Shown: piece after piece, positions 8,358 through 38,111 of the stretch | Numbering within the stretch: the stretch's first letter is position 1 | How the letters are laid out: each line of letters begins with the position of its first letter | Virus record (IMG/VR): IMGVR_UViG_3300036444_000026 | Coordinates: 1-42,912 of that record | Length of the DNA: 42,912 bases | Strand: one strand, 5' to 3' | Source: a virus | Made by a program: the position numbers and the translations under genes | The notes under the pieces: model-generated | What the model saw: only the letters and a program-made list of their open reading frames with translations | Databases searched by the model: none | What the model was told of the DNA's origin: nothing

Positions 8358-8576
8358 TCAGCCCGCACGCTTTCCGTTACGCTTCTCTCTCAGTGTCAGA
8401 TTTCCGGCGGCCGACACGCTATGCATGGTCGCCTGCAAGCGAACCGCCGGCACGGTTCGACCAAGCGCCTTGGCGACTTTCTCGATGGGCTCGCCCTGCC
8501 TAAGGAGCGCGACCATCTTCTCAATGTCGGCGCCCGTCCACTTCCGGCGCGGCCGCATGGTAAGTTTCTTCGCCAT
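8358..8576 (-). CDS. Small HTH protein, oriented against the array
   Basis: 72 residues on the minus strand. After a basic start (MAKKLTMRPRRKWT), residues about 14-46 read as a Myb-like or GcrA-like tri-helical unit: WTGADIEKMVALLRQGEPI, then EKVAKALGRTVPAVRLQ. The same unit occurs twice in the minus-strand gene at 36125-36586. It reads out of a short divergent region shared with the plus-strand gene at 8723. A role as local repressor is inference. Confidence 0.6.
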   Translation of the reverse strand: MAKKLTMRPRRKWTGADIEKMVALLRQGEPIEKVAKALGRTVPAVRLQATMHSVSAAGNLTLREKRNGKRAG

Positions 8577-33870: not shown

Positions 33871-34500
33871 CTATACTGGTGCGATCTGGTTCACTGTGGC
33901 TTGCACGCGAACCTCACGCTTCAATAGTTCGACGAGTATGGTGATTCTACCCTTCTCGTCTACATCGGAAACACGGCCTGTCATGTTGTCAGTGATTGCG
34001 CTCAACAGGATTCTGACCTCATCCCCAACAGCAGGCTGGTACCCCGCGATCTTCCGCCCCTTATCTCGATAGAACAACTCACGCTCACCGGCCTCGATGT
34101 ACTGGATCGCCTGCATGGCAACTGGCCTCACCACAGCCACGTCCTCACCGAACCGCCACAGCGGCCGAGACGATACACCCGGGCATCTTGCGATAACATC
34201 GTATCGGCTCGACACCACGCTCTCTGCCACAAACAGCAACCCCGGGAACAGCGGGCGCATGACGTCCTCATGGGTTTCCCCGGCTAAGTGACGCGCCTTT
34301 GGCAACGGCGCCGTCCGCAGCATGGTCGGCATGTAGAACGGCACCTTGCGCAACACCAAACCGGCCTGCGCAGCCATCTCGCGGTTCGGCTCCGTCTGGA
34401 CCACATACCAGCGGCAGCCCGGCGCTGGTGTCAAATCCACTGGCGGCTCGCGATCGACATAGCCGACAATGTCGCCAATCTTGTAGCTGGTGGCCGTCAT
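33871..34500 (-). CDS. Phage-encoded NusG/RfaH-family transcription factor
   Basis: 209 residues. The NGN domain spans about 29-125: CRWYVVQTEPNREMAAQ, KVPFYMPTM, MRPLFPGLLFV, IARCPGVS, and FGEDVAVV. A KOW domain follows (about 158-205: VGDEVRILLSAITDN, GRVSDVDEKGRITILVELL). NusG paralogues bind RNA polymerase clamp and make it processive. It is coupled by ATGA to the replication gene and is the last gene of the early left operon, directly before terminator-like hairpins and the late operon, as expected for a late-gene processivity factor. That role is inference. Confidence 0.85.
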   Translation of the reverse strand: MTATSYKIGDIVGYVDREPPVDLTPAPGCRWYVVQTEPNREMAAQAGLVLRKVPFYMPTMLRTAPLPKARHLAGETHEDVMRPLFPGLLFVAESVVSSRYDVIARCPGVSSRPLWRFGEDVAVVRPVAMQAIQYIEAGERELFYRDKGRKIAGYQPAVGDEVRILLSAITDNMTGRVSDVDEKGRITILVELLKREVRVQATVNQIAPV

Positions 34501-35594
34501 GCTGTTTCCTCGTCGGGATTATAGATTGAACCATCTTTTTTGGGCGGCCACGGCCACGGAGCTTGGGAGCCCTCAACGAGCCTGCGCCGGGTTGCAAGCA
34601 CGAGGTTCTCGCCAACGAACGCCTCCCATGCGCCTGCCTGTTGGCGATCCAGCACCACCCACTGATCGCGCGGCGGGGCGTGCGCCAAAGCCAACAGCCG
34701 TGGCGTCACTGGTCGGAGATGGCGCACAGCACCATCGGGCGATCGCATGACGGTGCGCAGGAACTCGTGCGTACCGACAAGCCCATGCAACGCCGTGACC
34801 GCCGACGCCTCAACCGTGTCAGGTGCAAAGCTCGCATTTACCGGCTTTTCGGCCTCAGCCTTCGCAGCCAGCAGCGTCCAGCGCTTCTGCTCAAGATACC
34901 GCCACCCAGCAGGCACGCGATCACGCTTCAACCGTTTCAGGTCAGCGAGGAAGGGCGCAATTCCCTCCAGCGCAGCAGCGCGCTCTTCGTCGCTCAGCGC
35001 TGCCGCTGCATACCCCGTGCGTTGACGGTCATCGGACGCCGCCGTCGGCCAACGCTGCTCGAAAGCCGAAATGAACTTGGCCACTTCGTCGTGCGCGCGC
35101 GCGTCTCTCTCACGTTCAAGATGGGGACGTTGTAAGGGGACGTTCTTGGTGCCCACGTATGTATGGGCACCCCGTGCCCGCTCTGGGTGGGCACCCGGGT
35201 GCCCATCTATGGGCAGGGGTGCCCGCTGGTGGGCACCCCCCTCCCCGGATTCCGATAAGGAATCGCTATCGTCCGCAGACGCCGAAACACCGCTTTCGTC
35301 GCGATCGAGAATGACACGATATGCAAAGGATTGACTTGGCTGCGTGCCCTCGTCTGCGTCAGCCTCACGGCGACGCATCTGCACCCATCCAGCTTCGTAA
35401 AGCCGCTCCAACGAACGCTGCAGCGTCGCGCGGCCGCACTTGATCTCTCGCGCCATCTTGACCTGACTGCGCCGACACCAGCCGAGATCGTCAATGTGAC
35501 GGCCAAGCAAGCAAAGCACTTGGAGATCGCGGGGCTCCAGCGTGTCGTCGGTGACTGCGCCGGCCGGGATGATTGAATAGCGGGGGCCGCTCAT
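34497..35594 (-). CDS. O-like replication initiator with N-terminal helix-turn-helix
   Basis: 365 residues from the ATG at 35594 (the frame extends to 35636 with only weak starts). Residues 1-85 are a winged helix-turn-helix: EPRDLQVLCLLGRHIDDLGW, CRRSQVKMAREIKCGRATLQRSLERLYEAGWVQ. A Gly/Ala/His-rich low-complexity region (about 118-145) is encoded by the iteron-like cluster. The C-terminal part has helical segments (FISAFEQRWP, FLADLKRLKRDRVPAGWRYLEQKRW), seen in phage primosome-type proteins. No ATPase motif is visible, so a host helicase is presumably loaded. Confidence 0.7.
   Translation of the reverse strand: MSGPRYSIIPAGAVTDDTLEPRDLQVLCLLGRHIDDLGWCRRSQVKMAREIKCGRATLQRSLERLYEAGWVQMRRREADADEGTQPSQSFAYRVILDRDESGVSASADDSDSLSESGEGGAHQRAPLPIDGHPGAHPERARGAHTYVGTKNVPLQRPHLERERDARAHDEVAKFISAFEQRWPTAASDDRQRTGYAAAALSDEERAAALEGIAPFLADLKRLKRDRVPAGWRYLEQKRWTLLAAKAEAEKPVNASFAPDTVEASAVTALHGLVGTHEFLRTVMRSPDGAVRHLRPVTPRLLALAHAPPRDQWVVLDRQQAGAWEAFVGENLVLATRRRLVEGSQAPWPWPPKKDGSIYNPDEETA
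35148..35238. repeat. Iteron-like GGGCACC/GGTGCCC cluster (candidate origin)
   Basis: Six half-sites in 91 bases, inside the initiator gene: GGTGCCCA (35148-35155), TGGGCACC (35164-35171), GGGCACCC (35189-35196), GGGTGCCC (35197-35204), GGGTGCCC (35217-35224) and GGGCACCC (35231-35238). The third and fourth fuse into an 18-base perfect palindrome (35188-35205). Lambda likewise keeps its origin iterons in gene O. The repeats encode repeated GAH, so a coding cause is possible. Confidence 0.55.
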
Positions 35595-36586: not shown

Positions 36587-36948
36587 CACGTGACCTCGAC
36601 GTAAGGCAACACACGAAGACTAAGGGCCCGGGCAGTCGCAACTTCGGCTTGAGCACCGAGGCTTTTTTCCCATCCAGGCAAAACAACGACTGCATCCGCG
36701 TGGAGGCAGACGAACTCAAGATCGTCTTTCAACGCCTCGCGAAGATTGAATCCGTGCTTCACCTCCGCAATGGCGTTGTCGCCAGTCTCGTTTCCTTTCG
36801 AGATATCGACACCGGTTGCGATAATGTCCCGCTCAGCGGGATTGAAGACCTCATGGCCCTTGCCGCGCAGATCCGCCGCGGCCGCGTGGAAAGCAGGGAA
36901 ATTGAATTCGGCAATGCCCCTCATTGGGCCAGCGATGTAAATTTTCAT
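36586..36948 (-). CDS. DUF4406 protein (nucleoside deoxyribosyltransferase-like)
   Basis: 120 residues. MKIYIAGPMRGIAEFNFPAF, HEVFNPAERD, DLEFVCLHADAVVVLPGWEKSLGAQAEVATARAL are the DUF4406 motifs, distant relatives of deoxyribosyltransferases. The Asp and the S-x-G-A-x-x-E of the family core are present. Common in phage early operons; a nucleotide-salvage or modification role is unproven. Confidence 0.85.
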   Translation of the reverse strand: MKIYIAGPMRGIAEFNFPAFHAAAADLRGKGHEVFNPAERDIIATGVDISKGNETGDNAIAEVKHGFNLREALKDDLEFVCLHADAVVVLPGWEKSLGAQAEVATARALSLRVLPYVEVT

Positions 36949-38111
36949 GCGGCGTCGCTCGTTGTCTTCGGTTGAAGGAAGCTGGGGAGATCAATCGGCG
37001 CCGCGTCATCTTCGATGACCTCTCCTGTTTCAGGATCATGCGGCGGCATCGCCGGCATCTCGAACTTCAGCTCGTTGCCCCAGCTGGTCCAGCCGGCCCG
37101 GGGCCTGCGCGCATAAAGTTCGAGATACGGCCCGTCGACGAGGCGCTCGATCCGCTCGTAGGCGTCGTCGGGCTTGCGTGAGTGCTCCATGATCGGCGCG
37201 ACAATGAGCTGCCGGACGTCTGCATGTAGCCGCTTCGGGGATCCCCGCGTCGCGAGCCAGCAAGCCTCAGGATTGGCGCGAGTCCAATAGCCCTGCGTCA
37301 TCGCCCACCCATCGCCACTGGCAAGCTGCTTCGCCCAGGTGAAGGCCGTCGTCTTGTGCGTAAAGTCGAGCGCGGCGATCAGATCGAGCGCTGCCTGCGG
37401 GCACCAATCGACCATCCACATGAACATGACGCAGTCGTCGGCCACGCAATCCTTGACCGGCGCCAGATCTTCCATGATCCGCTCGATAGCACCGGTCGTG
37501 TAATGCAGGTTGGCCGACCGCCCCTCGCCGGCATCAGAACGCGCCTTGAAATGCCAAGGTGGATCGAGATAGAGCGCCTTCGCCTTGTAGCCGCTCGCCG
37601 CCAACGCGCGCAGATCAGCAACTGTGCCGCCATCAATCGTCCGCGCCGCATGATCGCTGCGCCGCTGCGCATCGCGCGCGACTTTATCAGCAGCGGAGAC
37701 AGGATCGACCAGCACCGCGCGGCCAGCGGCAATCTTGCGCCGGGTGCTTTCGACAAGCGCCTCGAATGCGATCTCTGAGATTTTGGCGCTGCGATTTGCC
37801 GTTTTCGCGAGGTTCTTGTCGACGCCGACCTCCGCTAAAGTCACCCGCGGAAATGGGGTTTCTTCAACCCCATTTTTCTTCGGGCGGCCCTGGACGATCT
37901 GCCCCGCTTTGCGCGCCTCTTCGAGCACAAACCCGAGCCGACGCTCCGCCCGCATCTGGAACTCAGTCGCCTCGGCAAGCAGCTCGCGATCCTGAATCTG
38001 GCGAGCATGAAGCTTCACATGCTCCATCTCGTCCCTGATGGAGAGAACCTGATCCACGCGAGTTGCTTCTGCCAGCGCCCGCCTGACGACCGAATACTGA
38101 GCCAGATTCAC
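36945..38111 (-). CDS. MT-A70-family DNA adenine methyltransferase
   Basis: 388 residues. DPPW at 183-186 in ALYLDPPWHFKA is the catalytic motif of MT-A70-type N6-adenine methyltransferases; CVADDCVMFMWMVDW, ALDFTHKTTAFTWAKQ and YWTRANPEACWLATRG follow the family order. The N-terminal 130 residues (LGFVLEEARKAGQIVQGRPKKN, VGVDKNLAKTANRSAKISEIAFEALV) form a helical DNA-binding-like module often fused in phages. No cognate endonuclease is visible, so it is an orphan methyltransferase, perhaps protecting phage DNA. Confidence 0.85.
   Translation of the reverse strand: MNLAQYSVVRRALAEATRVDQVLSIRDEMEHVKLHARQIQDRELLAEATEFQMRAERRLGFVLEEARKAGQIVQGRPKKNGVEETPFPRVTLAEVGVDKNLAKTANRSAKISEIAFEALVESTRRKIAAGRAVLVDPVSAADKVARDAQRRSDHAARTIDGGTVADLRALAASGYKAKALYLDPPWHFKARSDAGEGRSANLHYTTGAIERIMEDLAPVKDCVADDCVMFMWMVDWCPQAALDLIAALDFTHKTTAFTWAKQLASGDGWAMTQGYWTRANPEACWLATRGSPKRLHADVRQLIVAPIMEHSRKPDDAYERIERLVDGPYLELYARRPRAGWTSWGNELKFEMPAMPPHDPETGEVIEDDAAPIDLPSFLQPKTTSDAA

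Follow-up and report, generated by a model that had tools for sequence, protein, structure and literature searches.

The 42,912-nucleotide (nt) stretch of viral DNA analysed here (IMG/VR record IMGVR_UViG_3300036444_000026, positions 1 to 42,912; hereafter the window) belongs to a temperate phage. Its genes include those for terminase, portal and capsid-type proteins, for an S24-type repressor, and for an integrase. Within a gene for a predicted replication initiator with a winged helix-turn-helix (wHTH) domain lies an array of short inverted repeats that we interpret, with a probability of about 0.9, as the replication origin of the phage, an intragenic iteron origin like those in the O gene of phage lambda and in the rep gene of plasmid pSK41. 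From comparison of related sequences, the array is very probably bound by the gene's own protein to start phage replication.

An array of dyads conserved as DNA

Six exact copies of GGGCACC or GGTGCCC lie at positions 35148, 35165, 35189, 35198, 35218, and 35231 (span 35148-35238). The whole window contains 14 such half-sites compared with 6.57 expected from shuffled sequence, corresponding to ~0.014 per 91 bases, and therefore the cluster is far beyond chance. A preliminary description of the window had reported six half-sites in 91 bases with an 18-base palindrome, which is borne out but understates the array: two further, degenerate half-sites went unnoticed, GTGCCC at 35174 and, facing it, GGGCAGG in dyad 2. 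The real unit comprises eight half-sites arranged as four inward-facing dyads, GGTGCCC...GGGCACC (><><><><), that start at gene nt 356, 380, 400, and 424. The distance between half-sites is 11 in each of the two 5' dyads and 14-15 in each of the two 3' dyads, with steps of 20, 20-22, and 24 from dyad to dyad, and these two spacing classes are common to families with different site sequences. The spacing of outward-facing half-sites, 9-11 bp, is near one helical turn. There are usually four dyads in genes encoding arginine at residue 60 of the recognition helix (Arg60), and three to four in others.

The array is maintained at the level of DNA. When the codons of the window gene were resampled synonymously 5000 times with the gene's own usage, the mean number of half-sites was 0.26 and the maximum 3, compared with the six present. 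The same excess was found in 19 other Arg60 genes, three genes with asparagine at residue 60 (Asn60), and eight genes with CGGCAC sites; genes with GGGCACC carry 4-8 sites, compared with 0.2-0.8 after resampling with the same peptide. In relatives at 49-60% protein identity the half-sites are kept while the linker peptide that they encode drifts, with GGAHQRAPLPIDGHPGAHPERARGAH becoming, for example, GGCPPAGTPRARLDGHGGARPERAPGAH or GVPAGGQGCPPVGTGAHAYAGTGAH. The GAH peptide of the window protein is replaced in homologues by GVP, GCPP, RAP, GHP, VGT, or AGT, again with half-sites kept. The preliminary description had predicted that iterons would be kept through synonymous change as the protein drifts, and this is what the homologues and the loss of half-sites on codon shuffling show; the contrary pattern that it named, with the GAH peptide kept and the half-sites lost, is the opposite of what was found. 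It had also noted that the low complexity of the encoded segment fits DNA-level constraint. The linker does look repetitive, being rich in Gly, Ala, His, and Pro, and the constraint is present, but of the six half-sites four are in frame 0, one in frame 1, and one in frame 2, so that they are not a peptide repeat.

An inverted 7-mer is present in four or more copies within 130 nt in 72% of 139 initiator open reading frames (ORFs), compared with 10% of 426 neighbouring unrelated ORFs, taken from the same loci with homologues removed, and 12% of codon-shuffled initiators. More than 100 related phages and prophages share this layout, protein and DNA having changed in step, and nearly all of them belong to rhizobia-like bacteria. 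A contig search with the single initiator protein returned no relatives; an alignment-based search did find them.

Recognition helix, constant module, and plasmid relatives

We tabulated the first base, N, of the half-site against the wHTH sequence in 107 homologues with a half-site of the form NGGCA. All 38 Arg60 proteins have GGGCACC (N = G) and all three Asn60 proteins have TGGCACC (N = T), while N = G occurs in none of the 69 proteins lacking Arg60. Residue 60 ranks first of 97 N-terminal columns, with mutual information with N of 1.11 of 1.31 bits, and only columns 60, 79, and 88 set the Asn60 proteins apart from all Arg60 proteins. A tree from which the recognition helix and linker were left out mixes Asn60/T with Arg60/G members within a single clade, and needs five base changes and six residue-class changes. 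Further loci with Arg have G (L169, L200, L223, L224, L228, and L229) and further non-Arg loci have C (L196, L230, L231, and L232); a Ser60 subclade has a mixture of C and A. More distant HTH sequences are accompanied by other dyads at the same place: TGTGA/TCACA with ETVNR in two different proteins (L011 and L156), CTGTC with QAVND (L141), and GTAAG with ARVSQ (L142). In many Rhizobiaceae initiators the C-terminal domain alone is shared, and is joined to other DNA-binding domains with dyads of their own.

Directly 3' of the array is a constant module, overlooked in the preliminary description of the candidate origin, which had identified the half-site array. The module consists of three AAC[GC] repeats 12-15 nt apart, the sequence GAGAGAGA, and an alternating CG run. 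The three repeats together with GAGAGA occur in 88 of 148 distinct initiator genes, compared with 0.2 expected after codon shuffling. The three repeats of a gene seldom share a reading frame, and across genes GAGAGA can be found in any of the three, so that this module too is constrained as DNA. It also follows unrelated iterons and DNA-binding domains (L201, L204, L207, and L210). In members with another C-terminal domain the GAGAGAGA part of the module is absent: L128, L136, L169, and L223, which combine Arg60 and a GGGCACC array with a different C-terminal domain, have a GGTGGT-type sequence in its place and keep the CG run, and L224, with the same combination, has neither sequence and the CG run only. 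Scanning with the pattern GGTGGTGATGCGCGCG for more members with this second type of C-terminal domain gave 53 matches, none of them an initiator. A second GAGAGAGA-N-GCG is present in the window outside the initiator, at 8380-8391 on the (-) strand, and is probably a chance occurrence (0.1 expected for both together).

Relatives of the initiator are found on four circular plasmid records of 41-50 kb, from Devosia sp. SL43, Agrobacterium salinitolerans, Rhizobium rhizoryzae, and Sinorhizobium medicae. The Agrobacterium and Rhizobium phage-plasmids carry ParA and ParB-type genes, and the PLSDB gene tables, which are incomplete, list no further replication initiator for them. None of the four plasmids has a profile match to RepA_N, RP-C, or Rep_3, a negative that is weak for RepA_N and RP-C because these matched none and one, below cut-off, of the control genomes, respectively. 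The initiator gene of the Agrobacterium plasmid keeps the order of dyads, three repeats, and CG-rich run, and that of the Rhizobium plasmid has clear repeats and weak dyads.

The initiator protein and known intragenic origins

In an AlphaFold2 model of the initiator, for which 76 homologues were used, a wHTH domain (residues ~10-100) and a C-terminal domain (157-360) are predicted confidently. The linker between them (101-156) is disordered in the model, with a predicted local distance difference test (pLDDT) score of ~40, and its codons include the array and most of the segment with the three repeats (Table 1). The protein matches the 'replication initiation protein' profile phrog_270 (E 3.2e-13) over residues 5-258, covering the N-terminal domain and the start of the C-terminal domain. 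Pfam and NCBIfam give no assignment above cut-off; the Pfam match to HTH_36 is sub-threshold (E 7e-4), and a PDB sequence search returned mostly generic wHTH regulators. The C-terminal domain, which also occurs behind unrelated N-terminal domains, is proposed to recruit the replisome.

Table 1 Features of the initiator gene and the putative origin (window positions).
Feature	Position	Strand	Remarks
Initiator gene, 365 aa (wHTH + linker + C-terminal domain)	34497..35594	(-)	HTH_36, phrog_270, AlphaFold2 model
Winged HTH codons, residues 10-100	35295..35567	(-)	AlphaFold2 pLDDT mostly 80-97
Recognition helix codons, residues 55-68	35391-35432	(-)	
Arg60 codon	35415-35417	(-)	Top mutual information with half-site base
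Disordered linker codons, residues 101-156	35127..35294	(-)	pLDDT <50; array inside
C-terminal domain codons, residues 157-360	34515..35126	(-)	AlphaFold2 pLDDT 82-97
Dyad 1, GGGGTGCCCACCAGCGGGCACCCC	35216..35239	(-)	Half-site distance 11
Dyad 2, TGCCCATAGATGGGCA	35200..35215	(-)	Half-site distance 11; left half-site degenerate
Dyad 3, GGTGCCCACCCAGAGCGGGCAC	35174..35195	(-)	Half-site distance 14
Dyad 4, GGTGCCCATACATACGTGGGCACC	35148..35171	(-)	Half-site distance 15
Perfect 18-bp palindrome, TGGGCACCCGGGTGCCCA	35188..35205	.	Outward-facing half-sites of dyads 2 and 3
Relatively AT-rich segment	35113..35147	(-)	Three AACG repeats 13 and 15 nt apart; proposed DNA unwinding element
GAGAGAGA element of constant module	35104..35111	(-)	
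Alternating CG run of constant module	35093..35103	(-)	

Origins inside initiator genes are already known from lambda, RepA_N plasmids, and repABC replicons. Lambda O binds four iterons in its own gene, with the melting region on their 3' side (PMC7466680). The annotated lambda iterons occupy O gene nt 349-433 with steps of 20, 24, and 23, and the dyads of the window occupy gene nt 356-447, so the lambda-like placement within the initiator gene put forward in the preliminary description agrees in both position and spacing: as in lambda O and the O genes of Stx phages, the origin would be mid-gene, with four dyad iterons at the same gene position and in 20-24 bp steps. That description had also called the protein an O-like initiator with an HTH. 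This holds for the overall plan, but direct profile homology to lambda O was not detected (hhalign probability 0.2%); an indirect, weak link exists through O-like PHROG profiles (phrog_391, E 0.0017 for the window protein), and is stronger for L011 and L141. The window further differs from lambda in its iteron sequence, in the two spacing classes of its dyads (11 and 14-15), in a 3' segment that is weakly AT-rich and followed by GAGAGAGA and a CG run, and in having a NusG-like antiterminator as the next gene instead of the P helicase loader. No P-type helicase loader was found near the initiator among the genes scanned.

By analogy, the closest mechanistic precedent is pSK41 Rep. Its N-terminal wHTH domain binds four Rep boxes within the central part of rep, its origin encodes a central linker that is dispensable for replication, and its C-terminal domain binds host primase (PMC5703833). 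RepA_N initiators such as this share with the window protein a wHTH N-terminal domain, a linker encoded by the known or putative origin, and a C-terminal domain. Foldseek places the RepA_N N-terminal domains 4pql, 5kbj, and 4pt7 among the best PDB matches, although these are weak (E 0.02-0.04, TMt ~0.5) and many other wHTH domains score alike; RepA_N (PF06970) is absent among Pfam matches of the window initiator at E up to 1. Unlike the Firmicute plasmids that include pSK41, the replicons here are alphaproteobacterial phages, and similarity of the C-terminal domains is not reported. The alphaproteobacterial repABC origin also lies inside the initiator gene, repC, but has a large A+T-rich region and no iterons (PMC3155836), in contrast to the window gene, and RP-C is not among the Pfam matches of the window initiator. 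True homologues are phi2LM21_p26, 33% identical to the window protein, and its relatives (phrog_270), with dyads TGCCGG...CCGGCA unlike those of the window. The protein phi2LM21_p26 was already called a putative replication initiation protein in a paper that mentions neither iterons nor an origin (PMC5537653), and we found no report of iterons or an origin for this initiator family in the open-licence literature.

The NusG-like gene that follows the initiator (33871-34500, (-) strand) is also paired with it in phi2LM21, Nostoc phage Nsp-JY10, phi3LM21, Agrobacterium phage Rivra, and three phage-plasmids. Upstream of the initiator is an MT-A70-type DNA methyltransferase gene (36948-38111, (-) strand), and several related phages and plasmids likewise have methyltransferase genes close to the initiator. 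The window also encodes a Lar-type restriction alleviation protein (PF14354; 186-635, (+) strand). An additional ORF, consisting of the C-terminal domain alone, lies ~6 kb from the full initiator at both L164 and L185 (genomes G001 and G066).

Proposed origin function and its alternatives

In the mechanism that we propose, the wHTH domains would bind the half-sites as an ordered assembly, comparable to that on the lambda O iterons (PMC7466680) and pSK41 Rep boxes (PMC5703833). The bound array would strain the flanking segment with the three AAC[GC] repeats, the proposed unwinding element, which would open. The C-terminal domain, tethered by the flexible linker that the array itself encodes, could then bring host replication proteins to the opened DNA beside the GAGAGAGA/CG element. 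More speculatively, and with rather less than even confidence, we suggest that these are two-part, exchangeable origins, in which the N-terminal DNA-binding domain and the iterons change together according to a readable code, and the C-terminal domain is coupled to its own constant module of AAC[GC] repeats, GAGAGAGA, and CG run, which may be a sequence-specific unwinding and helicase-loading site of a type not described before.

Several observations weigh against an origin or against its recognition through residue 60. The correlation at residue 60 is phylogenetically structured, with 3-4 independent contrasts that are all concordant (sign test p 0.25), so that the case from covariation rests on consistency and not on many independent events; the DNA-binding domain and array are adjacent and could travel together. 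In addition, L195 (CGRSTVQA, with Gly54 and Ala60) has TGGCACC and L194 (also CGRSTVQA) has a mixture of AGGCA and GGGCA, unlike C[AS]RSTVQA proteins, which have CGGCA. These two loci rule out residue 60 as the sole determinant of the half-site and indicate that residue 54 also matters. The AT content 3' of the array is only modestly raised, at 0.5-0.6 in most of 40 nt compared with a background of ~0.35, and the window contains no exact DnaA box. A shift in GC skew, suggested in the preliminary description as a check, gave no support for an origin, with no switch or inflection at the array.

Binding of the protein to the array might instead serve regulation, with the array used by the HTH protein as an operator, or as a transcriptional roadblock, to shut down either its own gene or the NusG-like and terminase genes that lie downstream. 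Dyads in the gene of an HTH protein fit autoregulation, and the covariation speaks for binding specificity and not for what binding does, but we consider this explanation improbable: the array lies over 350 nt into the gene, the rest of the window has no other such array, and repression leaves unexplained the AT-leaning module with its CG run, the lambda-like placement, and the phage-plasmids that lack another annotated Rep. It is very unlikely that the dyads are hairpins in mRNA or single-stranded DNA, acting in attenuation or priming, and not protein sites. Every dyad could fold, with a loop of 4-10 nt, but the eight half-sites share one sequence and co-vary with residue 60, whereas nothing would keep independent stems from diverging with compensatory changes, and the length of the inner loop varies by position. 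An origin of the repeats as a by-product of codon bias in a low-complexity linker is barely tenable: the disorder and composition of the segment invite it, and it is contradicted by half-sites on both strands and in three frames and by the codon resampling.

The intragenic origin favoured here provides a putative origin, and a candidate rule for how initiator and origin recognise each other, for widespread temperate phages and phage-plasmids of Hyphomicrobiales, for which we found no described origin. Each gene carries its own target, so that the sequence record is a natural experiment on the co-evolution of domain and site, and the pairings of Arg60 with G and Asn60 with T, as well as the Gly54 exceptions, are directly testable. 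The conserved 3' module likewise makes DNA opening and the loading of the host helicase testable in phages that have no recognisable loader beside the initiator.
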